Origin: Rhodospirillales bacterium
GTDB lineage: Bacteria; Pseudomonadota; Alphaproteobacteria; Acetobacterales; Acetobacteraceae
Direction of reading: 5' to 3'
Assembly (NCBI GenBank): GCA_025352915.1
Contig: JANXSA010000227.1
Location: 1-13,023 of the forward strand
Length of the DNA: 13,023 nt
Shown: positions 1-13,023 of the stretch, in pieces
Position numbering within the stretch: the stretch's first letter is position 1
Layout of the letters: every line of letters begins with the position of its first letter
Translations under genes and position numbers: made by a program
Notes under the pieces: generated by a model
What the model saw: only the letters and a program-made list of their open reading frames with translations
Databases searched by the model: none
Told to the model about the DNA's origin: nothing

Positions 1-1690
1 GTCCGTTCGCGAGGGTGATGTCGAGCTGCTTCGCGGGATCGCTGGGGAACAGGTGAGCCACCTCGCCATCGCCGGTGAAGTAGGAGACGTAGGCATGGCC
101 GGCATAGTTCGGCATTACAAAGCGCGGCACGATGCTTTCCAGGTCGCGCAGTTTTCGCAGGCCGGACTTGAGCGTCAGTTGGACGTCCGATCCCTCGGCC
201 TCGAAGTGGCGGGTGACCGGGCGCAACAAGTCGAGAGTGCGGCAATAGGGGCCCTTGATGACGACCGGCTGCCAGTTGACCGTCGCGCCACGGGCAGTGC
301 CCTCGACAAGGCGACGATGCACGGCGTTGTAGTCATCGCCGATGAGTCCGCGGACGGTGACCTGGCCGCTTTCCGAGACGCTGCCTTCGATCAATGCGCA
401 AGGCAGGCCCTGCGCAACTTCCTGAAGCGTGGTGCGCAGTTGCGCGGGTGAAGGCGGCGCAGGTGGAGGGGGCGGCGTTGGGACGACGACTGGCGGCGAT
501 GCCACGGGTGGGCTCGCTGCCGGCGGGATTGGCGCAGTGGACGGCGGTGTGGTTGTGGAGGCTGGCCCGGCGGTCAGCGGCGGGTCCGGCGCCGCGGCGG
601 GGGGCGACAAAACGGTCGTGGGCGGCGGGACCGGGATTGGCGCTGGCGCGATGTCGGCGGTCACGGTCGGGGCAGGCGTGCGGCCGGCGAACCAGTACCA
701 GCCGCCGCCGCCTGCCGCGAGCACCAGGGCCGAAACCCCGGCGAGCAGGGGCACGAGATTGCGCTTTGCCGGCGCCGGGGCGGACGAGAGTGGTGGACGC
801 GGGGCCGCGCGCGCCGCCGGCGGGGGGGCGACCATCGTCGCGTCGGCGTCGTCGGCCGGTGCGGCAGCGGTTTGGCCCTGGGCCGCGGCACGCAGGGCCT
901 GGGCGAATTCGGCCGCGGTGGCGTAACGCTGCTCCGGGCGCTTGGCCATGGCGCGCGCGACCACGCCATCCAGCATCTGCGGCGCGGTCACCGACAATTC
1001 CGACGGGTTGGGCGGGGCGACGTTCAGCACCTTGTGCATGATCGCCGTCATGCTGCCCTCGAACGGCCGCTCGCCGGTGAGCATCTGATAGAGCAGCACA
1101 CCGGAGGAATAAATATCGGTGCGGGCGTCAACCGTCTGGCCCATGAACTGCTCGGGCGACATATAGGCGGGCGTGCCCATGATGGTGCCCGCCTGGGTCA
1201 TGCTGCTGCTCTCGATCCGGGCGATGCCGAAATCGGCGATCTTTACCTGGCCGTCGCGGGTGAGCATGATGTTGGCGGGCTTGATGTCGCGATGGACCAC
1301 GCCGCGTTCGTGGCTGAACTGCAGCCCGGCGAGCAGCGCCTCCATGATCCGCACCGTCTCGCCGGTCGGGAAGCGCTCGTTCTTGTCGAGCAGCGACTTC
1401 AGCGACGGGCCGTCGACGAACTCCATGACGATATAGGCAAGCTTGGCGGTTTCGCCGTAGTCGAAGACGCCGACGATATTGGGGTGGGTCAGCCGGCCGG
1501 CGGCCTGGGCCTCGCGCTTGAAGCGGGCCAGTTCCTCCTGCGTCTCGGTGTCGCCGGCATCGGGCAGGGTGAGGGTCTTGATCGCCACGCGCCGGTCGAT
1601 GATGGGATCGTGGGCATCATAGACGGTTCCCATGGCACCCTTGCCCAGGATGCCCGCGATCACGTACTTGCCGAGCCTGCCGTCCTCCAT
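1..1690 (-). CDS. Transmembrane Ser/Thr protein kinase with periplasmic C-terminal region (3' end beyond window)
   Basis: This is a Hanks-type Ser/Thr kinase of the PknB/PrkC kind, of which 563 residues are visible. Catalytic domain, about residues 9-265: glycine loop LGKGAMGTVY (15-24), VAIK lysine K38, HRDIKPAN with catalytic D135 and RD-type R134, DFG at D153-G155, and GTPAYMSPEQ (172-181). The activation loop is rich in Ser/Thr (161-173), so autophosphorylation is plausible. An Ala/Pro linker follows, then one membrane span (about 311-334), a very Pro-rich stretch (about 336-415) and a periplasmic region with two cysteines (C431, C483). The last visible part, around FVMPNYAGHAYVSYF and HLFPSD, resembles DUF4384-type domains; that match is from memory and weak. 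The ATG at 1690 is chosen because GGAAGGG precedes it by six bases and the kinase homology starts eight residues later. The gene lies 53 bases after the CHAT gene on the same strand. Its substrate is unknown; neighbouring envelope proteins or their regulators are guesses. Kinase identity is very secure. Confidence 0.95.
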   Translation of the reverse strand, partial: MEDGRLGKYVIAGILGKGAMGTVYDAHDPIIDRRVAIKTLTLPDAGDTETQEELARFKREAQAAGRLTHPNIVGVFDYGETAKLAYIVMEFVDGPSLKSLLDKNERFPTGETVRIMEALLAGLQFSHERGVVHRDIKPANIMLTRDGQVKIADFGIARIESSSMTQAGTIMGTPAYMSPEQFMGQTVDARTDIYSSGVLLYQMLTGERPFEGSMTAIMHKVLNVAPPNPSELSVTAPQMLDGVVARAMAKRPEQRYATAAEFAQALRAAAQGQTAAAPADDADATMVAPPPAARAAPRPPLSSAPAPAKRNLVPLLAGVSALVLAAGGGGWYWFAGRTPAPTVTADIAPAPIPVPPPTTVLSPPAAAPDPPLTAGPASTTTPPSTAPIPPAASPPVASPPVVVPTPPPPPAPPSPAQLRTTLQEVAQGLPCALIEGSVSESGQVTVRGLIGDDYNAVHRRLVEGTARGATVNWQPVVIKGPYCRTLDLLRPVTRHFEAEGSDVQLTLKSGLRKLRDLESIVPRFVMPNYAGHAYVSYFTGDGEVAHLFPSDPAKQLDITLANG

Positions 1691-1739
1691 CCGTATCCCT
1701 TCCGCGCCGTCGTCGGGAACAATCAGCCCCGCATACGGA
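1690..1739 (-). promoter_or_regulatory. Inverted repeat bracketing the kinase ribosome binding site
   Basis: A perfect 7-base inverted repeat (TCCGTAT at 1690-1696, ATACGGA at 1733-1739) encloses most of the 53-base gap between the CHAT and kinase genes. In the transcript the downstream arm ends on the A of the start codon, and the ribosome binding site lies in the loop. The loop is about 36 bases and there is no U-tract, so this is not a terminator. It could modulate initiation or be chance. Confidence 0.2.
1697..1703 (-). promoter_or_regulatory. Ribosome binding site of the kinase gene
   Basis: On the minus strand the bases read GGAAGGG, six bases before the ATG at 1690. It is a good purine-rich Shine-Dalgarno match and supports that start over any other in-frame codon in the short gap. 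Confidence 0.7.
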
Positions 1740-1743
1740 AGCG

Positions 1744-4700
1744 TTATAGACCGGTCGGGCGGGTAACAGAAACAGCAGCCTGCTGCCCGGTGCGCCGCGC
1801 GCCACCCTCGCCGATGGTGGCGAAGGGTGCCCAGTAGAACGGATGCGCCACTTCGGCCACCAGGCCCTTGCCGGCTTCGTCGAGCATGCCGAGTTGGGCG
1901 GCGCGCATCGCGCCGGAGATGCCGATGCCGGGGCTGGCGCCGAGGCGGCGCAGCGAGTCGGCGACGAGATAGGCGGCGATCTGGTCATTGACCGACCAGT
2001 GGGTGACCAGCAGCGAGCGGGCCCCGGCATAGAAGAACGAGCGCGCCAGGCCCGACAGGCTTTCGCCCGCCGTGGTGCCGCCGGGGCCACCGGAATTGCA
2101 CGCCGAGAGAATGACAGTGTCGGCATCGAGATCGAGTTCGAGAATCGCCGAGGCGGTCAACAGCGAGCCCGCGGCATCGGCAGCACCTGCAGGGGCCGAG
2201 GTGACGATCGCCGGCTCGGCCTGGCAGCGCAGTTCGGCGGGCAACAGGGCGTGGGTGGCGAAGTGCAGGATGCGGAAATCCTTCAGCCCGGCGCGCCGCA
2301 CCCCGGCGGCGGTGAAGGCCGGACCGAGCAGCGTCTCGGCGGGCGCCGCGCCGAGCAGCCGGCGGGATGCGTCAAGCTCAGCCCGGGCAAAGGGCAGCGG
2401 CGGCAGCCCGGCATAGAGCCGCGCGCTGTCGGCACACTCGGCCCCGAAGCTGCGGGTCGCCTGGGCGAGGGTCACCGGTCGGAAATCACCGAACCCGAAC
2501 CAGGGGCGGGTGGCACGCGAGTTGCCGGCGATCTTGCGCAGCGAGACGAAGTTCGCCGCCGCCGGCACGTGCGCGATCGTCGCCCGGCGGAGCAGCCAGG
2601 GTGCCGTGGCCAGGGCGTCCGGAGTGGCCGGACCGGTTAACAGGAGTTCAAACGGCAGCGACAACAGCGGACCAGCCGGCACGATGACCATCGAGTCCGC
2701 ACCTTGCAGCGCCGGTTCCAGCCCTGCGAGGGTGGCGCGATAGAGCGCTTGCGCTGCCTCGATGTCGAAGGGCGGCGGGGTGCCGGTGGTGTTCTCGATG
2801 CTGGCACGCACCCGGCGGACGAGCTTGCCGATCTCCGGCAGGCCGCCGGGGATGGGTGCGACGTCGACGCGGCCGTTGCGCAGCGCGAAGGCCCAGCCGC
2901 CGGTATCGCCGAGGGTGATCGAGACGAAAGCCTCGCCGGGCGCGAGGGCTGCCAAAACCTCGGCCGCGGGCGCCACTTGCTGCACCAGCTGGCCGTAATT
3001 CGGCGACGCGGCCTGGAGCGTCGATTCGGCTTCGGCGGCATCCTCTTGCGCCTTGGCAATACGGGCGTCCAGCGCCGGTGACCCGGACGGCGCGTTGGCA
3101 CCCGTGGTGGAGGGTTCAAGCTGATCGCGCTCGCGATAAAGATCGGCCAGGCGGGCGCGGATGTCCTCGCGGGCGCGGATGGCGGCGGCAACCTTGGGGT
3201 CGCGGGCGTTTTCGGACAGGCGGGCGGTGGCCTGGGCGATCTGTTGGCTGGTGACGCCGCCCTGGGCGAGCTGGGCCGCCTCGAACATCTCGACCAGCCA
3301 TTTCTGGCTTTCGCCGGAGCGGGCGCGCGCGGCGGCAGCGAAGGCGTCCAGGCATGGGGCGAGAAGCTGCGGATCGGCGCCGATGCGCAACTGGCGCAAC
3401 AGCCGCACGGCGCGCAGGCAAACATCATCCGCGGCGGCGGCTTGTCCGGCGCGCGCCATCTGGCCGGCCCGCAGTAGCAGGGTCTCGGCGACCGGCCGGC
3501 TGTCGGGCAACGCCTGGGCGAACACAGCAGCGGCGCGGGCATACTCGCCGGCCCCGGCATCGGCGCCGGCGGTGTCGGCGATGATCCCGGCGCCGGTGCG
3601 CGCCATGCGGGCGCTGATGACCGGCTGGCGCAGGCCATTGCCGGTGACCAGGTCGTTGGCGTGGCGCATGGCCACCGCGCTCTCCTCCAGTCGGCCGGCG
3701 CGCCGCAACAGGGCGGCTTCGCGGCGGCGAACCTCGATCAGGCCAAGCAACGCGGTACGGGTGGCAGGTGCCGACAGCATTTCGCGATTCGGCAGCAATT
3801 CAGCCATGCCGGAGCCGGCGCCGGTGCTGCCGATGCGCGCGGCGGCGCGCGGGCGCGCGTTGCGTACTTCATCGGGCAGCAGGTTGGCATAGCCAAGTCC
3901 GGCGCGGGCGAGCAGCGGCAGCGCCTTGTCGGTGTTGCCCTGGTTGGCGGCGTGCAGCGCCTGATAGTGCACCAGGCGGACGGACTGGACCGGATCGTCG
4001 GCGGCACGAACAAGCTGTTCGGCGCGGGCGAAGATCGAATCCGCCTCGGCATATCGCCGCTGGTTCGAGACTTGCAACCCAAGCGAGATCAAGCTGACCA
4101 CGGTGTTCGGGTTGTCGGCGCCGAGCGCTTTTTGCTGGAGCAGCAATGCCGCCCGCATGTTCTTCTCGGCGCCTGAGAAATCCTCGGTCCGATTGGCGTC
4201 ATCGGCGACGCGCACCAGCCTGTCATATTCGCCGACATCGCCGGAGCTGAAGGCGCGGGCGGCAGAGCGTTCGGCGATCAGGCGCTGGGCAGCGCCGCCC
4301 TGGGCCTCGCTGGCGGCGGCGGTGGCAGGCAGGCGGCCGGACAGCACGCCGATGGCGCGTTCCATCACCGGCAACGAGGGCTGCACCCCATCGGCGAGCC
4401 AGGTCCGGCCACCAACCGTGGCGACCAGGGCGATATGCGCCCAGCCACCGACACGGCGGGTGCATTGCAGCAGGAGTGCCGGCTCGCTGCCGAGAATCGT
4501 CGTCGCAGCCGGCGGTTGGCAGGCATAGCGCTGGTCCAGCCCGATGCGCCATGGGCCATTGACGGCCACCTCGGCGGCCGAGGCAGGCGAACCCGGGGGC
4601 GGGCGGCGGACGCGCGCGCTGGGTTGCAGCCAGGTGCCGCAATAGACGTCGGCACCCTCGCCGAGGTTCTGCTGGGTGCAATCCTCGCCCGATGCATTCT

Positions 4701-4836
4701 TGCCGACCGCCAGTCCACCCTCGGCCCGGCTGGACTGGCCGCCGCTGACATAGGCGGTCTCGGGCGGCGCCGTGCAGGCCGCGGCCAGGGTCGTGGCGAA
4801 CAGCACGGTGACGAGGCTGTGGCGGATCGGCCGCAT
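1744..4836 (-). CDS. Exported lipoprotein with TPR-like repeats and a CHAT caspase-like protease domain
   Basis: This protein has 1,030 residues. It begins with a lipoprotein signal peptide: basic start, hydrophobic run, then LAAAC with C21 as the lipidated cysteine. Thr at +2 suggests the outer membrane. Residues 40-170 form an unrecognised region with four cysteines (53, 66, 106, 125), plausible as disulfides. Helical TPR-like repeats follow (clearest 204-310, continuing to about 500), then a charged helix (about 545-605). The CHAT domain spans about 630-1020. It shows VIVPAGPLLSLPFELL, HFATHA with H858 and H862, LSACNSGG with C913, GESLSGLARSFFYAGARSLL, and THWSVND then FYWAPFATIGE near the end. 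The caspase/gingipain-like dyad H862/C913 is intact, so it is probably an active cysteine peptidase; no substrate can be read from sequence. The ATG at 4836 is preferred to the one at 4860, which adds eight polar residues before the signal peptide and lacks a ribosome binding site. The start lies one base after the exoprotein stop, so the two are probably translationally coupled. Confidence 0.93.
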   Translation of the reverse strand: MRPIRHSLVTVLFATTLAAACTAPPETAYVSGGQSSRAEGGLAVGKNASGEDCTQQNLGEGADVYCGTWLQPSARVRRPPPGSPASAAEVAVNGPWRIGLDQRYACQPPAATTILGSEPALLLQCTRRVGGWAHIALVATVGGRTWLADGVQPSLPVMERAIGVLSGRLPATAAASEAQGGAAQRLIAERSAARAFSSGDVGEYDRLVRVADDANRTEDFSGAEKNMRAALLLQQKALGADNPNTVVSLISLGLQVSNQRRYAEADSIFARAEQLVRAADDPVQSVRLVHYQALHAANQGNTDKALPLLARAGLGYANLLPDEVRNARPRAAARIGSTGAGSGMAELLPNREMLSAPATRTALLGLIEVRRREAALLRRAGRLEESAVAMRHANDLVTGNGLRQPVISARMARTGAGIIADTAGADAGAGEYARAAAVFAQALPDSRPVAETLLLRAGQMARAGQAAAADDVCLRAVRLLRQLRIGADPQLLAPCLDAFAAAARARSGESQKWLVEMFEAAQLAQGGVTSQQIAQATARLSENARDPKVAAAIRAREDIRARLADLYRERDQLEPSTTGANAPSGSPALDARIAKAQEDAAEAESTLQAASPNYGQLVQQVAPAAEVLAALAPGEAFVSITLGDTGGWAFALRNGRVDVAPIPGGLPEIGKLVRRVRASIENTTGTPPPFDIEAAQALYRATLAGLEPALQGADSMVIVPAGPLLSLPFELLLTGPATPDALATAPWLLRRATIAHVPAAANFVSLRKIAGNSRATRPWFGFGDFRPVTLAQATRSFGAECADSARLYAGLPPLPFARAELDASRRLLGAAPAETLLGPAFTAAGVRRAGLKDFRILHFATHALLPAELRCQAEPAIVTSAPAGAADAAGSLLTASAILELDLDADTVILSACNSGGPGGTTAGESLSGLARSFFYAGARSLLVTHWSVNDQIAAYLVADSLRRLGASPGIGISGAMRAAQLGMLDEAGKGLVAEVAHPFYWAPFATIGEGGARRTGQQAAVSVTRPTGL

Positions 4837-4837
4837 G

Positions 4838-5030
4838 TCAGTAGTCCTCGTCCGAGACATTGGGCAGTTGCACGTCGGCGTCGTCCTGAGTCGGACGGTC
4901 GCGGATGATCGGCACGTCGCGCAGCGGGCTGATCGGCGGGATGGTCTGCACCGGCAGCAGCACGCAATTGATCGAGGTGATCGGGCAGGCGTTGAAGCGG
5001 TAATTCGCGTTGGGCAGGGCGAGGATGCCG
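4838..5030 (-). other. Exoprotein C-terminal tail with Cys-x6-Cys pair
   Basis: After the last beta-rich segment the chain reads NANYRFNACPITSINCVLLP, followed by a proline-containing stretch and an acidic end. The cysteine codons are at 4985-4987 and 4964-4966, 48 and 41 residues before the C-terminal end of the protein. No other cysteine occurs in the visible 2,727 residues. The pair is a candidate disulfide loop for anchoring or for stalling export. Confidence 0.7.
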
Positions 5031-8000
5031 GCCTTGTTGGCGGCAGCCTGGCCGTCGAGCCCGCCGATGGTGCCGAACAGGTCGGCCTTGCCGCCGCTGC
5101 CGAGTACCAGCAGGCCGGCGACGTCGACGGTGCCGGTGGCGATGCCGTTCTGCCGCGTCACCAGGATCAGGTCGGTCGCCTTGCCGACCAGCTGGCCGAT
5201 GCTGATCGTTCCGGCATCTGGCTGCGGCAGGACGAAGTCGATCGTCGCCTTGCTGGCGCTGAACGGCGCCACGGTGATGTTGCCGGTGCTGATCTTGCCC
5301 GGCCCACCGCCGCCGGCGATGGCAAGGAAGCTGCCGAGCTGGCTGGTGGTCAGCGCGGCGATCTGCGGATCGGTCAGCTTGACGTCGATCTTCTGGGCGC
5401 TTCGATCCAGCCCGTCGGTGGTGAACGCAACGCCATCGCCGACGGTGATACTGCCGGCGGCGGTGATGCCGAACAATCGGGCGGTCACCGGGCCGGAGAT
5501 CGCCAACGGCGCCGTGTTGTTCAGGGTGAATGTGCCGTCGGCAAGGCTGGCGCCGACCAGCGTGGCGATGGCATTGGCACCGGTCAGCGCGATGTTGCCG
5601 GCGCTGCTGGCCGATGCGGCAAGCTTGCTGGCGACCAGCGTTCCGGGCGCGGTGACACCCGTCGATGTGCCAAGGCTCAACAATCCACCCGGAGCCGCGA
5701 CCTGGCCGCCGATTGCAACCGTGATGGCGCCATTCGGGGTCGCCAGTGTGGTCGCCTTTCCTGGGCCGCTGACAACGCTGCCGGCGACGTTGATCGCGGC
5801 GGGTCCGCTCGCCAGCCCGGTAATGGTGACGGCGCCCTGTGCGGCGCCGAGCGGGCCGCTGATGGTCAGCGGGATGGCATTGACGATGGAAATATCGCCG
5901 GCACCGACCGCGAAGCTGCCGATGCTGGCGATGGCGTTGCTTGCCTGGGCAAGGCTGGCCTGGCCATTCAGCCCGGCGCTCGTCAGCAATCCAAGCGTCA
6001 GCATGCCGCCCGTCTGGGTGACACCGGCGCTGCCGGCCGCGAGGTCGAGCGTTGCGGCCTTGAGGACGTTGCCGAGCAGGATGCCGCCAGCCGGTGCCGT
6101 CGCCGCCAGTTTGGTTGTGCCGGAGACGGTAACGGCGCCGGTCACCGCGATCGCGCCGGCGCTTGCAGCACTATTGGTGATCGTCAGGTTGCCGGCGGCG
6201 ATGGTCACCGGGCCGGCGACGGTCAGCGCCAGGGTGTCGGTGATGCTCAAATTGCCGGCTGACAGGTTGAGCGGTCCCAGCGCCGAGATGGCGTTGCCGG
6301 CCTGGTCGAGGGTCGCCGCGCCGGCGATGCCGCCGCTGCTTTGCAGCGTCCCGGCGGTGATGCTGCCGCCAGACTGGGTGATGCCGGCGCTGCCGACGGT
6401 GAGGTCCACCAGGCCCGATGCCGTGGCGTCGATGACACCGTTCGATGCGATGCCGCCACTCCCCGGGGCGTTGAGAACGATCGAGCCGGCGGCACCGCTG
6501 CGCAGAGTGCCCGTGATGCCGATGGCCGAAGGTGCGCCGGAGTTGCCGGTCAGGGCGATACTGTCGGCCGAAAGGGTGCCGGCAACCGTCAGCGTCGATT
6601 TGCTCGCAAGCGCAAAGGCGCCACCCGACACGGCGATATCACCGATGGTACCGACACTGTTATTCGTCCACGTCAGGTTGACCGGGCCCGCGATGCCGCC
6701 CGAACTGCGCAGCGTGCCCGCGATAACGCCGCCATCGGTCTGCTGCACGCCGCCGGTTCCGGCGGTCAGGTCGATGGTTCCGGACGGGGTGGCGTTCAGC
6801 ACGTGGCCTAATGGAGCGTTGCCGAACACGATGCCGCCATTTGGCGCGATCGCCTCCAGCCGGATAAGCCCGCCCGGGCTGGTGGAGATGCCGTCGAATG
6901 CCGCGGAGATGGTGCCGGTCAGCGCGCGCAGCGCCACGTTGTCCGCCGACACATGCCATGCCGTGACTCCGGTGCTGTTGACCAGGGTGAAGTCGCCGCC
7001 GGACACCGCCACGGAGACGATGGTGGCGAAGGCATTGGCCGGCGCATTCAGGACCACGTCGCCGCCGACGGCGCCGCCCGTGAGATTCAGGGCGGAAAGA
7101 CTGCCGGCGGTCTGGACGACGCCGCCGCTGCCGGAATAGAGGCCCAAACTGTTGGCGGCGGTCACGGTGCCGGACAGCGTCATTCCGGCGGTCTTGTCGG
7201 ACGCCCCCAGAAATACGCTCTGGGTGGCCGTGATCGTTCCGCTGACACTCAGCGCGGCGGCCCCGGGCGCGAAGGACTGGATGGAGACACCGTTTGCGCT
7301 GATCGTCCCGGCAATGGACAGCGGGGTGCGTGTGATCAGTTCGACTCCGCCGCCGGGAAGGAAGACATCGCCCAATGTCGATATGGCGTTGAGGCCGGCG
7401 GCCAACTGCACCCCCGAGCCGGTGCCGCCGGACATAAGCAGCGTTCCGGCCGTGATCGCGCCCGCGAACTGGACGATGCCGGCGGTGCCGGGGGTGAGAT
7501 CGAGCGTGGCGGCCGTGATGGTGCCGTACAACGCCATGCCATCGCTGGCCGCCAGCTTCATTGTGCTGGTGGCCGAGACACTGCCGGTGATGGTCAGCGC
7601 ACTGGGGCCGACCGCGGTGTTGGTGAGGGTGATGTTGGCCGCGCTGAACGCGCCTGCGAGGTCCAGCGGCACGGAGCTGGTCAGCGTGGCATCGCTGCCA
7701 ACGGCCAAGGTGGTGATCCGGCCGACGGCATTGCCGGCTTGGTCGAGCACAAGGTTGCCGCCGATCCCGCCGGTGCTGCGCAACGTGCCGGCGGTGATGC
7801 TGCCGCCGCTCTGGCTGACGTTGCCGCCGGCCGACAGGTCGAGAATGCCGGTCTTGGAGGCGTTGACATTGCCGCCCAGGTCGATCGCGCCGCCAAGATC
7901 GCTCGCCGTCAGCGTGACGGTGCCGCCGGGGATGGTGCTCAAGCTGCCAGTGATGGAAATCGCCGTGCCTGCGGCGCTGTCAGTCAAGGTCACGGCATCG

Positions 8001-11000
8001 GCCGCGACCGCACCCGATACGGTCAGCGCCACGCTGTCCAGCAGCGTCAGGCTGCCGCCGGTGATCGTGCTGTTGCCGAGGGCGACGACGCTGTTGCCGG
8101 CCTGGCCCAGCGTTGCATTGCCACCGGCAACCGCGATCGTCAGCGTGCTCGCGGTCAGGCTGCCGCTGGGCTGGGCGATGCCGCCGCTGCCGGCGATGAG
8201 GTCCACGGCACCGCCGGCAATCGTACCAGCGAGCAACAGGCCGCCTGCGACATTGCTGGCCTGAAGCCCAAGCGCGCCGCCGCCGGCGTCCAGCGTGCCA
8301 TTCACCGCAATCGCGGTGCCACTGGCGGAATCGACCAGCGTGATGCCGGTGGCCTTGACCGTGCCGGCGACATTGAGCGCCGCTGCATCGGTCAAGGCAA
8401 AGCTGTTGCCGGTGACAGTAAAATTATCGAGCCGCCCGATGGCGTTGGACGCCTGGGTGAGGGCCACCGCGCCGGTCGCCCCGCCCGTGCTGCGCAGGCT
8501 GCCCGCGGTGATGCCGCCGCCGGTCTGACCGATCCCGCCAGTGCCGGCGGACAGATCAACCGCGCCGGTGACGCTGGCATCAAGCGCGCCCGACAGGGCG
8601 ATGCCACCCGCCGCATTGGTCGCCGCCAGCGTGAGCGTGCCGCCGGCGCCGGTCTTGATGCTGCCGGAAACGTCGATCGCCTTGCTGGCCGCCGCATCGC
8701 CGCGCAGCGTGACGTTGGCCGCGCTGAGCGCGCCGCTGACGGTCAATGCGGCGCTGTCGATCAGGGTGAAATCGCCGCCCGTGACCGCAAAGCCGCCAAG
8801 TGCCGCGACGCTGTTCGCGGTTTCGCCGAGCGCCACGGTGCCCGCGCTGCCGCCGGTGCTCTGCAATGTCGCCGCGGTGATGCTGCCGGCGGCCTGGGCG
8901 ATGCCGCCGCTGCCGGCGGTCATGTCCAGCGTGCCGGCCTTGAGGGTCCCGGAAAGCGCAATGCCCGCCGCCTTGTCGGTAACCTCGAGCAAGGTGGTGC
9001 CGGTGCTGGTGACGCTGCCGCTGACCGTCAGCGCGGTCCCGCTGGCGCTGTCGCGAATGGTGACGGCGGTGCCCGAAACCGCCCCGGCAATGTCCAGCGC
9101 GAGGCTGTCGCGCAGCACCAATGCGGCCCCGGTGACGGCAAAATTCCCCAATGTGCTGATCGCATTGCCGGCCTGGTCGAGCAGAACCGCCCCGGTGGCC
9201 CCGCTGCCGCTCCGCAGCGTTCCCGCGGTGATGCTCCCGGCACTCTGGTTGATGCCGCCGCTGCCCGCCGCAAGGTCAACCGTGCCGGTGGCGCTGGCGT
9301 CCAGCTTGCCGGACAGCGCGATGCCACCCGCGCCATTGGCGGCCACCAGCGTGATCGTGCCGCCAGCCGCGGTGTTGAGCACACCGCTGATGTCCAGCGC
9401 CTTGGACGATGCGGCAAAGCTGCGCAGGGTGATGCTGCTGGCCGACAATGTGCCGCCGACAGCTAGCGCGCCATCGCTTGCCAAGGCGAGATCGCCAGCC
9501 ACCGCAAATGGACCCAACGCGCCAATGGTGTTGCCGCCTTGGGCAATACCCAGCGCTGCGGCGGTGGCGGTGAGCACCGGGATGCTGAGCCCGCCGGTCG
9601 ATTGGCTGATGGTGCCGCTGCTGATCAGGTCCAGCGTGGTCGCGTTCGGCGCCACCGTGCCGGACAGCGCGATGCTGGCCGCCTTGTTGCTGTTGCCGGC
9701 GCTGCTGGCTTGGCCGATGCGTACCAGCGTCGCCGTGATGTTGGTGAGGTCGCCCAAGGCGAAACCGCCCGCCGCACCCCCCAGCCCGAAGCTCGCGGTG
9801 GCGTTGTTCGGGCCGATTTCGATGGTCCCGCCGGTGGCTGTGAGCGCCCCGGTGCCGGTGAAGCTCATGCCCGCGGCGGAGAGCGAAAGCGTGGTGCCGT
9901 TACCCGCGCTGACCGGGGCATCGACGGTCAGACTCGTGGTGCTGGCCAGCGTGATGGCGCCGTTCACCGCCAGCGGGCCGAGGCCGCTGATGACATTGGC
10001 CTGCGCGAGCAACAGCGCCCCGCCAATGCCGCCGGTGCTGCGCAGCGTGCCGGTGGTGACGCTGCCGGCGCTCTGGTTGACGCCCGCCGAACCTGCGCTC
10101 AGGTCGAGCACCCCGGTGACGCTGCTGTCGAGCTTGCCGGTCAGCACGATCCCGCCCGCGCCATTGCTCGCCGCGAGTGCGATTGTCCCGCCAGCGGCAA
10201 CCGAGAAGTCGGCCGAGGAAATGGCGATCGCACTGGCCGACGCGGCGCTGCTGCGCAGGGTCGCGTTGGCCGCCGAAACGGTGGCCGCCGCCGACAATGC
10301 CTGGGTGGTGGCCAGGGTGAGGTCGCCGGTCGCGGCGAATTTCCCCAGCGTGGCGATGGCGTTGCTGGCCTGGCCGAGATCGGCGCCGCCAATACTGCCG
10401 GTCGTGGCCAGCGTGCCGGCGGTGATCTTGCCCGCCGTTTGGCTGACCGTGCCGATACCGGCCAGTTGCAGTGTCCCCCCGGCGCCAGCATCGATCGTGC
10501 CGGCCAGCGCCGTGCTGCCGGTGGCGGCACTGGTGGTGAGCGTGATCGTGCCAGGCGCGCCGAGGACGAGCGCGCCAGTCGCGGCAAGATTGAGCGCCGC
10601 CCCCGCGGCACTCCCGGTCAGCGCGATGCCGGTCGCCTTGACGGTGCCGGTCACGTCCAGCAAGGCCGCACTGGTGATCGAGATGGCGCCCGTGGTGGCG
10701 AGGTCGCCGATGCCGGCGATGGTATTGGCGGCGTTGTCCAGCGTGACCGGCCCGGTGATGCCGCCGGCGCCGGAGACCAGATTCTTGGCGGCGAGCACCC
10801 CGCCGGTCTGGGTCGCGCCATTGGCGGCGGTGACGAGTTCCAGCCCGCCCGTGGTCAGCGTGCCCGCGGTGAGCACAACCCCGGTCGCCGCGTTCAGCCG
10901 CAGCAACGGCGTCGCGGCACTGGTGTCGAGATCGGCGCGCAGGGTGATGCCGGCGGCCTTGGAGGTGAGGTTGATCCGGTCGGCCGTGAACGCCGCGAAG

Positions 11001-13023
11001 TCGGTCTGTAGCACCGCAAGGTCGCCGCCATTCACCGCCCCCAGGCTGATCGCCGCGGTTGGCGCCAGCAACTCGATGGTGCCGCCCGCGGCATTGAGGC
11101 TGCCGGTGGTGATCGTGGTCGCGTCAGCCTCAAGCCGGATGGTGCGCCCGGCACCCACCGTCACGGCGCCGGCAATGGTCAGCGTGCTGCCGGTCTGGTT
11201 GCCCAGGATGATGTCGCCGCCCGTCGCCGTGATGGCGCCAATCTGCGCGATGGCGTTGTCGCCGGTGGCCTTCAGTGTGCCGGTGATACCGAGGCTGCTG
11301 CGCAACATGCCGGCGGTGATGACGCCGCTGCTGGTGACCCCGCTGCCCGCGCTGGTGGAAATATCGAAGGTCCCGGCGCCAACATTGACCGGCCCGCTGA
11401 TCGCCAGCCCGCCTGCGTTGACCAGGACGAGATCGCCGGCCGACACCGTCATGCTGCCCAGCGTGGTGACCGCGTTGGTGGCGGAGGTCAGCTTGACCGT
11501 GCCGTCGGCGCCAAAGCCGCTGCGGAGCGTGCCGGTGGTCAGCCCGCCAGCAGTCTGGGTGATGCCGCCGGTGCCGGCCGAAAGGTCGACAATACCCGTG
11601 CTTCCGGCATCGACATTCGCGCCCAGCACCACGGCGCCCGCCGCGTCGCTGGCGCGCAGCGTGATGGTCCGCCCGGCGCCGGTGGTCAACGGCGCCGCAA
11701 CCTCCAACGTACCGGCGGTGGTGACGACCAGGCTGATATTGCCCGCACCGGTCCCGACGGCGCCGCTGACCTGAAGCCCCGCGGCGTTGGTGAGGCTGAA
11801 ATTGCCGATCCCCGTCAGCGCAAAGCCGCCGAGGCTGGCAATCTTGTTGCCGCCGGCATCGAGCGCCACCGCGCCAGCGACATTGCCGGTGCTGCGCAGG
11901 TTGGCGGCCAGGATCGCGCCGGTCGTCTGCGTCACCCCGCCGGTGCCCGCCGAAAGATCGACCGTGCCCGCCGTGGCATCGACGGTACCGGACAGCGCGA
12001 TGCCGCCACTTGCCGTACTTGCGGCCAGTGCGATTGTTGGGATGGCGCCAGTGCCGGTGAGGGTGCCGGTGGCATTGATGGCCGTCGCGCTGGCCGAACT
12101 GCTGGTGATCGCGATCGAATCGGCGGTCAACTTGCCGTCGATGGTGACCGCGCTGCTGGTGTTCAATGTGAACGCGCCGATGGTGGTGAGATTGCCAACC
12201 CCGGCGACGGCATTGCCGGCCTGGCCGAGCGTCACCGCGCCAAGCACGCCGCCCGACGACACCAGCGACCCCGCCACGACCGATCCGCCGGACTGGACCA
12301 CACCATCGGCACCAGCATTGATATCCAGCTTGCCGGTGCTGCTGACGTCCACATTGCCGCCAAACGTGATGCCACCCTTGGCCGCGTTGGTGGCAATCAG
12401 CACCGCCGTGCCGCCCGCCACCGTGGTCAGGCTGCCGTTCACCGCGATCGCCGTCCCGGCCGCCGCATCGCCGATCAACACGATGATGTTGGCGCTCACC
12501 TTGCCGGCGACATCGAGTGCCAGGCCGGTGCGCAACCCGAGCAGCCCGGTCGTCACCGCCATGTCGCCAATTGTGCCGATCGCATGGATGTCGTTGGACA
12601 ACGTCACATCGCCGGTGATGCCGGCGCTGCTCTGCACCCGGTTGGCAGTCACCAGCGCGCCGGAGATCGCATTGACGCCGCTGCCGGCAGCGTTCAGGTC
12701 GAGCGTGTTGGCCTTCAGCGGCACATCGTTGATGGTGATGCCGCTCGCCCCGGCATCCAGGCGCAATACCGCCGTGGCGGCGACCGAGGCGTCAAACGCG
12801 TCGCGCACCACCAGGCTATCGGCAACCGCCGCCGTCGCCGCCGAACCGCCAAGCCGCAGCGTGGCACTGCTGATCTTGCCAAGATCGGCCGCGGTGATCG
12901 TCAGTTCCGCCGCCGCCGCCTTGCCCAGGCTCATCGAGCCGCCGCCCAGAGGCGCGATCTCGACCGTGCCGCCGGCGGCCGACAGCGCGCCGGTGGCGAG
13001 CTTGAACGCCGGCAGCGCGAGCG
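4838..13023 (-). CDS. C-terminal part of a giant filamentous-haemagglutinin-like beta-repeat exoprotein (5' end beyond window)
   Basis: There are 2,727 codons with no stop or frameshift, open to the right edge, so the true start is not visible. The ATG at 12934 lies mid-repeat and is not a start. Composition is dominated by Gly, Ala, Thr, Ser, Val, Ile and Leu, as expected of a right-handed beta-helix. About 20 degenerate units of 115-125 residues carry recurring motifs: DLSAGTGG, SITAGTLRSTGG, QAGNAI, ALTVSG and AGGIALSG. A second module type (GGTIEI…SLG…DxxxITAxxxRIG) occurs three times and is common, as I recall, in filamentous-haemagglutinin-family proteins. The C-terminus has no autotransporter barrel, sortase signal or PEP-CTERM. 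It is a short tail with a Cys-x6-Cys pair, a proline-rich stretch and an acidic end (SDEDY). This fits two-partner secretion, but the N-terminal TPS domain and the TpsB pore gene lie outside the window, so the secretion route is inferred. Likely role: surface adhesin or matrix fibre. Binding partner unknown. Confidence 0.88.
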   Translation of the reverse strand, partial: LALPAFKLATGALSAAGGTVEIAPLGGGSMSLGKAAAAELTITAADLGKISSATLRLGGSAATAAVADSLVVRDAFDASVAATAVLRLDAGASGITINDVPLKANTLDLNAAGSGVNAISGALVTANRVQSSAGITGDVTLSNDIHAIGTIGDMAVTTGLLGLRTGLALDVAGKVSANIIVLIGDAAAGTAIAVNGSLTTVAGGTAVLIATNAAKGGITFGGNVDVSSTGKLDINAGADGVVQSGGSVVAGSLVSSGGVLGAVTLGQAGNAVAGVGNLTTIGAFTLNTSSAVTIDGKLTADSIAITSSSASATAINATGTLTGTGAIPTIALAASTASGGIALSGTVDATAGTVDLSAGTGGVTQTTGAILAANLRSTGNVAGAVALDAGGNKIASLGGFALTGIGNFSLTNAAGLQVSGAVGTGAGNISLVVTTAGTLEVAAPLTTGAGRTITLRASDAAGAVVLGANVDAGSTGIVDLSAGTGGITQTAGGLTTGTLRSGFGADGTVKLTSATNAVTTLGSMTVSAGDLVLVNAGGLAISGPVNVGAGTFDISTSAGSGVTSSGVITAGMLRSSLGITGTLKATGDNAIAQIGAITATGGDIILGNQTGSTLTIAGAVTVGAGRTIRLEADATTITTGSLNAAGGTIELLAPTAAISLGAVNGGDLAVLQTDFAAFTADRINLTSKAAGITLRADLDTSAATPLLRLNAATGVVLTAGTLTTGGLELVTAANGATQTGGVLAAKNLVSGAGGITGPVTLDNAANTIAGIGDLATTGAISITSAALLDVTGTVKATGIALTGSAAGAALNLAATGALVLGAPGTITLTTSAATGSTALAGTIDAGAGGTLQLAGIGTVSQTAGKITAGTLATTGSIGGADLGQASNAIATLGKFAATGDLTLATTQALSAAATVSAANATLRSSAASASAIAISSADFSVAAGGTIALAASNGAGGIVLTGKLDSSVTGVLDLSAGSAGVNQSAGSVTTGTLRSTGGIGGALLLAQANVISGLGPLAVNGAITLASTTSLTVDAPVSAGNGTTLSLSAAGMSFTGTGALTATGGTIEIGPNNATASFGLGGAAGGFALGDLTNITATLVRIGQASSAGNSNKAASIALSGTVAPNATTLDLISSGTISQSTGGLSIPVLTATAAALGIAQGGNTIGALGPFAVAGDLALASDGALAVGGTLSASSITLRSFAASSKALDISGVLNTAAGGTITLVAANGAGGIALSGKLDASATGTVDLAAGSGGINQSAGSITAGTLRSGSGATGAVLLDQAGNAISTLGNFAVTGAALVLRDSLALDIAGAVSGTAVTIRDSASGTALTVSGSVTSTGTTLLEVTDKAAGIALSGTLKAGTLDMTAGSGGIAQAAGSITAATLQSTGGSAGTVALGETANSVAALGGFAVTGGDFTLIDSAALTVSGALSAANVTLRGDAAASKAIDVSGSIKTGAGGTLTLAATNAAGGIALSGALDASVTGAVDLSAGTGGIGQTGGGITAGSLRSTGGATGAVALTQASNAIGRLDNFTVTGNSFALTDAAALNVAGTVKATGITLVDSASGTAIAVNGTLDAGGGALGLQASNVAGGLLLAGTIAGGAVDLIAGSGGIAQPSGSLTASTLTIAVAGGNATLGQAGNSVVALGNSTITGGSLTLLDSVALTVSGAVAADAVTLTDSAAGTAISITGSLSTIPGGTVTLTASDLGGAIDLGGNVNASKTGILDLSAGGNVSQSGGSITAGTLRSTGGIGGNLVLDQAGNAVGRITTLAVGSDATLTSSVPLDLAGAFSAANITLTNTAVGPSALTITGSVSATSTMKLAASDGMALYGTITAATLDLTPGTAGIVQFAGAITAGTLLMSGGTGSGVQLAAGLNAISTLGDVFLPGGGVELITRTPLSIAGTISANGVSIQSFAPGAAALSVSGTITATQSVFLGASDKTAGMTLSGTVTAANSLGLYSGSGGVVQTAGSLSALNLTGGAVGGDVVLNAPANAFATIVSVAVSGGDFTLVNSTGVTAWHVSADNVALRALTGTISAAFDGISTSPGGLIRLEAIAPNGGIVFGNAPLGHVLNATPSGTIDLTAGTGGVQQTDGGVIAGTLRSSGGIAGPVNLTWTNNSVGTIGDIAVSGGAFALASKSTLTVAGTLSADSIALTGNSGAPSAIGITGTLRSGAAGSIVLNAPGSGGIASNGVIDATASGLVDLTVGSAGITQSGGSITAGTLQSSGGIAGAATLDQAGNAISALGPLNLSAGNLSITDTLALTVAGPVTIAAGNLTITNSAASAGAIAVTGAVTVSGTTKLAATAPAGGILLGNVLKAATLDLAAGSAGVTQTGGMLTLGLLTSAGLNGQASLAQASNAIASIGSFAVGAGDISIVNAIPLTISGPLGAAQGAVTITGLASGPAAINVAGSVVSGPGKATTLATPNGAITVAIGGQVAAPGGLLSLGTSTGVTAPGTLVASKLAASASSAGNIALTGANAIATLVGASLADGTFTLNNTAPLAISGPVTARLFGITAAGSITVGDGVAFTTDGLDRSAQKIDVKLTDPQIAALTTSQLGSFLAIAGGGGPGKISTGNITVAPFSASKATIDFVLPQPDAGTISIGQLVGKATDLILVTRQNGIATGTVDVAGLLVLGSGGKADLFGTIGGLDGQAAANKAGILALPNANYRFNACPITSINCVLLPVQTIPPISPLRDVPIIRDRPTQDDADVQLPNVSDEDY
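4845..4849 (-). promoter_or_regulatory. Ribosome binding site of the CHAT gene, inside the exoprotein gene
   Basis: GAGGA lies within the last codons of the upstream gene (…DEDY-stop), eight bases before the ATG at 4836. The stop and start read TGACATG. This arrangement supports termination-reinitiation coupling and decides the start codon in favour of 4836. Confidence 0.65.
9701..9832 (-). repeat. C-type module, copy 3, within the exoprotein
   Basis: It encodes GGTIEIGPNN, then SFGLGG, then DLTNITATLVRIG. It aligns with two other copies at 10955-11090 and 12838-12973 and differs from the A/B units. It accounts for the long spacing between the A/B motifs near 9570 and 10038. Confidence 0.7.
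10955..11090 (-). repeat. C-type module, copy 2, within the exoprotein
   Basis: It encodes GGTIELLAP, then ISLGAVNGGDLAVLQ, then DFAAFTADRINL. It has the same order of motifs as the copies at 9701-9832 and 12838-12973, and it interrupts the A/B spacing between about 10780 and 11295. Confidence 0.65.
12838..12973 (-). repeat. C-type module, copy 1, at the right edge of the window
   Basis: It encodes GGTVEIAPLGG, then MSLGKAAAAEL, then DLGKISSATLRLGG. It matches the other two copies in motif order. The ATG at 12934 falls inside this module, which shows that it is an internal methionine. Confidence 0.7.

Follow-up and report, generated by a model that had tools for sequence, protein, structure and literature searches.

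A gene for an exported CHAT protease, of the lineage of separase and Craspase, was found directly after the gene of a giant fibre of two-partner (type Vb) secretion (TPS) in a contig (JANXSA010000227.1) of a Rhodospirillales bacterium of the Acetobacteraceae, and the same arrangement recurs across this bacterial family and beyond it. The window, by which we mean the whole stretch of 13,023 bases analysed here, is one complete contig of a draft genome (3.84 Mb, 749 contigs). It carries three genes, all on the minus strand, for the exoprotein (13021-4838), the CHAT protein (4836-1744) and a serine/threonine kinase (1690-2), with intergenic gaps of 1 and 53 bases, and the exoprotein and the kinase are both truncated at opposite contig ends. 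From this layout a preliminary description had proposed an envelope system made of a repeat exoprotein, a CHAT lipoprotein and a transmembrane kinase. The three-gene array is real and conserved, and the envelope features named there, namely the exoprotein repeats, the signal peptide and lipobox of the CHAT protein and, by hydropathy, the membrane span of the kinase, were all found. The coupling of the exported CHAT protein to the TPS fibre, which had been suggested from this single contig, is strongly supported by a conserved gene order and by the joint occurrence of the two genes, as described below.

Since the window is an entire contig, the TPS domain, the TpsB pore and most of the DUF4384-type tail of the kinase fall outside it. 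The parts hidden by the contig ends are supplied by a relative with a 97% identical CHAT protein, in two loci (loci are given here by their L numbers): L159 carries TpsB and the TPS domain, while L160 carries the exoprotein end, the CHAT gene and the kinase with its tail, and then, in convergent orientation, genes for a membrane protein with an HExxH motif (protein X) and for an OmpA protein. In the window's own genome TpsB is found on a different contig, with 97% identity. The full array in relatives consists of the TpsB pore, the TPS exoprotein, the CHAT lipoprotein and the transmembrane kinase, with the convergent HExxH and OmpA genes, and Pfam recognises POTRA, ShlB and TPS domains, the kinase with DUF4384, and OmpA among their products. 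Two-partner secretion is indicated by the TPS domain in L066 (PF05860) and L159 (TIGR01901, 48 bits against a cut-off of 29), and by a TpsB with POTRA and ShlB domains in the same two loci, to which the TpsB of the window's own genome corresponds.

The family was scanned through its genome contigs, which yielded 78 loci, and the counts given for it cover the loci with sequence available at the position concerned. The exoprotein gene lies directly before the CHAT gene in 68 of 69 Acetobacteraceae loci. The kinase gene comes after it in 58 of 68, one of them 4 kb off, and is absent from the other 10. Where about 10 kb of upstream sequence was available (31 loci), a TPS domain was found in 17 and TpsB in 14, and most of the remaining upstream stretches end inside the giant exoprotein gene. 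The recognised neighbours of the CHAT gene are the TPS genes, the kinase gene, and the HExxH and OmpA genes. Furthermore, among 160 genomes of the family, 58 contained both the exoprotein C-terminus and a CHAT of this type and 95 contained neither, with the exoprotein only in 4 and the CHAT only in 3. This co-occurrence, with its 7 discordant genomes, has a Fisher p of 9e-35 when relatedness is ignored; related genomes are not independent, and the Fisher values in this study are descriptive. In the same 160 genomes a CHAT gene is located within 0.9 kb after 61 of the 77 exoprotein ends.

A survey of the neighbours of CHAT homologues, of the kind that the preliminary description had called for, extended the linkage of CHAT and TPS genes to 14 other families and found the kinase mostly missing outside the Acetobacteraceae. 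In a class-wide sample, a CHAT match at E 1e-30 was obtained in 62 of 386 genomes, and all 79 regions other than the window were read. TPS genes or an exoprotein were present in the region for 25 of the 33 CHATs sharing the N-terminal part of the window protein (the TPS-linked type) versus 1 of the 46 without it (Fisher p 1e-12), with distant TPS genes sought by Acetobacteraceae-built profiles and by composition, so that divergent ones can be missed. Of the 25, 23 were flagged by profiles or composition, and L152 and L194 were added on reading their exoproteins; the 25 span 13 families besides the window's. In a phylum-wide sample, CHAT was found in 44 of 397 genomes with 59 places listed, and 20 places of our own choosing were read; TPS linkage was seen for all 4 CHATs that have the N-terminal part and for 1 of the 16 that lack it, and L280 adds the fourteenth family. 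One of the other families (f122, L154) is counted on a divergent TpsB alone. All five TPS-linked places of the phylum sample belong to the window's class, and outside this class none of the 14 CHAT places read (15 listed) was TPS-linked by profiles. As for the kinase, which had been placed in the core of the system, it was found in the region of 1 of 37 other-family loci of the TPS-linked CHAT type (L139) and does not belong to that core. The finding is broader than could be known from the window for the CHAT protein and the fibre, and narrower for the kinase.

The CHAT protein (1744-4836, minus strand) is an exported TPR-CHAT lipoprotein of 1030 residues. Its separase-like peptidase domain (1807-2757) matches PF12770 at residues 694-1010 (E 4e-46, 158 bits against a curated cut-off of 24), with a weak TPR match in addition, and the protein contains a long TPR-like helical part. 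The signal peptide and lipobox (4774-4836) include the lipid-bearing Cys21; the lipobox of the window protein reads L-A-A-A-C with Leu at -4, and relatives show the usual L-x-[AGS]-C. By the +2 rule the CHAT lipoprotein would belong to the outer membrane. Cys21 is invariant in 59 of 59 aligned CHAT proteins, as are His862 (codon 2251-2253) and Cys913 (codon 2098-2100), which from the known CHAT motif we take to be the catalytic dyad, and eight non-catalytic cysteines; the alignment leaves out 19 of 77 CHAT frames in which the lipobox or start pattern failed or the frame was cut, of which at least seven have a lipobox-like cysteine by eye, and it includes one lipobox (L089) that is a false call by the pattern. 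An N-terminal Cys-containing domain (residues about 42-175, with C53, C66, C106 and C125; 4312-4713), made mostly of strands in a structure model, is typical of the TPS-linked CHATs. The fold search with the CHAT protein matched the TPR-CHAT protein Csx29 (Craspase, of type III-E CRISPR) and separase, and also DdvA (PDB title: transmembrane anti-sigma factor). Separase is the enzyme that separates human chromosomes, and both it and Csx29/Craspase act in the cytoplasm or nucleus, under the control of RNA or securin. Unlike these proteins, the window CHAT is a lipoprotein with the extra Cys-containing N-terminal domain and the eight further invariant cysteines.

According to the preliminary description, CHAT proteases are mostly discussed as cytoplasmic effectors, a view that did not hold here. 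A crude, home-made rule for signal peptides was applied to 33 of the 37 other-family loci of the TPS-linked type and to 48 of the 62 loci of the other type, with truncated or short frames omitted. Signal peptides were called in 27 of the 33 and in 38 of the 48 (32 of 42 without six giant frames, which offer many start sites to the rule), versus 140 of 641 control frames. Most of the tested CHAT proteins, even those without TPS neighbours, carry a signal peptide by this rule. Because signal peptides occur in most CHATs of the other type as well, the view of these proteins as mostly cytoplasmic looks like a study bias, and attention to them may shift from cytoplasmic immunity to the cell envelope.

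The exoprotein (TpsA) fragment of the window (4838-13021, minus strand) comprises 2727 residues, lacks the N-terminus and matched no Pfam family; the TPS domain is seen in the relatives L066 and L159. Its repeats have anchors spaced about 117-124 residues apart. The only two cysteines of the 2,727 residues form a C-terminal pair, CPITSINC (residues 2679-2686; 4964-4987). Of 68 Acetobacteraceae exoproteins, 66 have such a pair within their last 130 residues, almost always with a spacing of 7, and the 117,168 residues before this region hold 17 cysteines. In other families the pair is present in 17 of 21 exoproteins beside a CHAT of the TPS-linked type. By analogy with a known adhesin described below, the pair is likely a cysteine hook. 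Behind it follows a tail of 41 residues (4841-4963), presumably located in the periplasm and containing invariant prolines, which ends in the terminal motif PNVSDEDY-COOH (4841-4864; consensus P-x-[IVA]-xxx-D-[YF]). Of the 68 exoproteins beside CHAT, 64 end in this motif, and no other frame matches it: among 3,087 frames of at least 150 residues in the 78 loci there were 64 matches, all of them these exoproteins.

Orphan exoproteins, which have a related C-terminus and no adjacent CHAT gene, separate the motif from the cysteine pair. Fifteen of them have a complete end (L294, whose end is cut by its contig, is uncounted). The terminal motif was present in 9 of the 11 orphans with a CHAT elsewhere in the genome and in none of the 4 from CHAT-less genomes (Fisher p 0.011), three of the nine carriers being paralogues in one genome and two coming from sister genomes; the contig of orphan L291 ends just behind the exoprotein, so that its CHAT gene may merely lie off the contig. 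The Cys pair was retained by 3 of the 4 orphans that lack the motif in CHAT-less genomes. By this pattern it is the tail that would go with CHAT, and not the Cys hook. In one genome (L303, L305, L306), several exoproteins with the CHAT-type terminal motif are distant from its CHAT genes. Motif-bearing exoproteins away from CHAT genes suggest an action of CHAT in trans, for which the terminal motif offers a prediction of substrates.

Two TPS systems with known proteases can be compared. CdrA, a TPS adhesin of Pseudomonas aeruginosa, stays fixed in its pore through a cysteine hook at the C-terminus (PMC7616799, PMC11898600), and its periplasmic tail is cut by LapG, resulting in release under the control of cyclic di-GMP (PMC5422565), with LapD described as a transmembrane receptor (PMC5231407). 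Like CdrA, the exoprotein has a Cys pair near the C-terminus with a tail behind it, which in our case may likewise be periplasmic. Unlike in the CdrA/CdrB-LapG-LapD system, the gene directly behind that of the adhesin encodes a CHAT lipoprotein, and a Ser/Thr kinase is the signalling component. LapG is a cysteine protease unrelated to CHAT, and the protease of the array, matching CHAT and TPR only, is not of the LapG type. The LapG family PF06035 was detected in 1 of the 160 family genomes (G831, without a CHAT of this type) and not in the window's genome, with a control genome positive; as it is nearly missing from the family, there is no LapG to cut the hook-and-tail exoproteins there. FhaB of Bordetella is a TPS fibre matured and released by a dedicated surface protease, SphB1, and in this respect resembles the system proposed here. 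SphB1, a subtilisin autotransporter, has its gene outside the fha locus, and, in the account cited, the genes of TPS maturation proteases appear to lie outside TPS operons (PMC5422565), unlike the CHAT gene next to its exoprotein. In the literature, no paper was found that links the CHAT domain to two-partner secretion or hemagglutinin.

Based on the observed gene order, export signals, invariant catalytic residues, cysteine placement and co-occurrence of the tail motif with CHAT, we lean, on balance, towards a model in which the CHAT lipoprotein trims the periplasmic tail of the exoprotein and so sets retention or release of the fibre, acting like LapG without belonging to its family. The TPS fibre would be exported through TpsB and would stall with its C-terminus in the periplasm, because the disulphide-closed Cys pair could not pass the pore, and the tail behind this pair would present the terminal recognition motif. 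Anchored in the periplasm by its lipid, the CHAT lipoprotein would grip the tail with its TPR superhelix, and the His862/Cys913 dyad would cut it, which would trim the fibre and release or finish it. The inner-membrane kinase with its periplasmic tail would have joined the system in Acetobacteraceae as a signalling partner, in a role like that of LapD beside LapG. The earlier idea that CHAT serves maturation or release of the fibre has gained anatomical support from the Cys pair and the C-terminal tail; cleavage at a site in the tail, and the release that follows, are what we infer from it. The protease and the C-terminal motif constitute a concrete, testable pair for retention versus shedding of giant fibres, which matters in a family nearly devoid of LapG. 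A wider version is possible and held tentatively: CHAT would recognise, both in cis and in trans, a short C-terminal tag shared by several giant fibres and decide their fate at the outer membrane, replacing LapG, with the kinase as a plug-in and a second, zinc-dependent membrane peptidase. If this were true, alphaproteobacterial CHAT proteases would be mainly envelope enzymes.

Several points weigh against the trimming model. No cleavage was seen and no cut site was predicted, and the HExxH protein, as a second candidate protease, could do the cutting. The comparison of orphan exoproteins covers few cases, some of them paralogues (three in a single genome) or proteins of sister genomes. In other families the exoprotein tails differ, and 4 of the 21 exoproteins beside CHATs of the TPS-linked type are without the Cys pair (L146, L147, L149, L155). 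In addition, such an exoprotein end does not immediately precede 13 of 74 CHAT places in the family, several of which are at contig ends, and 8 of the 33 CHATs with the N-terminal part in the class sample have no recognised TPS gene (L145, at a contig end, L156, L176, L177, L179, L182, L191 and L230). The long TPR-like helical part and the lipid anchor would also suit a role in assembly or quality control, in which CHAT guides or degrades fibres that have stalled in the periplasm; the motif would then mark the fibre for a chaperone or for degradation instead of belonging to a release switch. We consider this rather unlikely, as the short and exact C-terminal motif tied to CHAT suggests specific recognition, which would nevertheless be compatible with such a role.

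A sensing function, in which CHAT or the kinase tail detects contact or stalling of the fibre, the cytoplasmic kinase reports inward and proteolysis is a signalling step, is consistent with the conserved catalytic residues of the kinase and the Cys-containing part behind its span, with CHASE2-cyclases, also transmembrane sensors, near CHAT in other families (10 of 37 loci), and with the fold match to DdvA. It appears improbable, since these cyclases are as frequent by the other CHAT type (16 of 62) and so not fibre-specific, and the kinase is absent from ten Acetobacteraceae loci and most other-family loci. Protein X, whose gene immediately precedes TpsB in 4 of 6 places of the class sample, might itself be the releasing protease, with CHAT only maturing or displaying the fibre; its weak fold match, and its absence from the other class-sample genomes with a TPS-linked CHAT, whereas CHAT is constant, make this very unlikely. 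That CHAT is an anti-phage effector for immunity or cell suicide, like its counterpart in type III-E CRISPR, with the fibre as an incidental neighbour, is extremely doubtful: the Craspase fold match agrees with it, and so does a match of the kinase domain to the PADLOC PD-T4-6 models, as any generic kinase domain would give, but neither CHAT nor protein X has a PADLOC match, signal peptides were called by the crude rule in most other-family members (27 of 33), and the link of CHAT to the TPS fibre is fixed. 

The kinase (2-1690, minus strand), with its C-terminus cut at the contig end, has a Pkinase domain at residues 10-256 (Pfam, E 6e-55) and a membrane span at residues 311-330 (701-760). 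Behind the span is a proposed periplasmic part (2-700), in which both cysteines (431 and 483) and the start of a DUF4384-like region are located. Among 60 relatives, at least 98% retain K38, HRD and DFG. DUF4384 was matched in three full-length relatives (E 7e-4 to 2e-6), of which one exceeds the curated cut-off and two fall short of it, and the tail is identical in type in 47 of 47 kinase loci with more than 5.5 kb downstream. The kinase is not a PASTA-type PknB, as the equivalog model gives 351 bits against a cut-off of 450, covers residues 7-298 only, and the tail is DUF4384-like. That this kinase controls the CHAT protease we can only infer. CHASE2-cyclases, confirmed by Pfam in four loci of other families, were rejected as dedicated substitutes for the kinase, because they are equally common by both CHAT types and not specific. 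Genes for CHASE2-adenylate cyclases are repeatedly found near both types of CHAT gene (L146, L151, L154, L155 and others).

Protein X has one membrane span and an HExxH motif plus Glu, with H239, E240, H243 and E292 invariant in 12 of 12 sequences; examples are found at L038:15185-16333 (minus strand), L160:9373-10425 (minus strand) and L143:2003-2932 (plus strand). It is encoded downstream in 31 of 53 Acetobacteraceae loci, convergent every time, with OmpA in 34 of 53, and protein X was in none of 6 loci without the kinase. No match was obtained in Pfam at E 0.01 or in NCBIfam, no similarity to the kinase tail appeared in a profile comparison, and Foldseek gave no match at E 0.001, the fold match to PPEP-1-like peptidases being weak. 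Protein X has the HExxH and downstream Glu of the PPEP-1/M34 zinc metallopeptidases; it differs from PPEP-1 in being membrane-anchored, and a sequence search against solved structures gave nothing better than E 0.1. It is probably a zinc peptidase of an undescribed family.

In other classes of the phylum, six giant frames end in a CHAT domain (L271-L276; gammaproteobacteria-like, 2,614-2,856 residues). They were considered as fusions of CHAT with an exoprotein; being not exoprotein-like and having no TPS domain by profiles, they were dropped as evidence. In five of these six regions a further frame, 1,070-1,195 residues long, is present.
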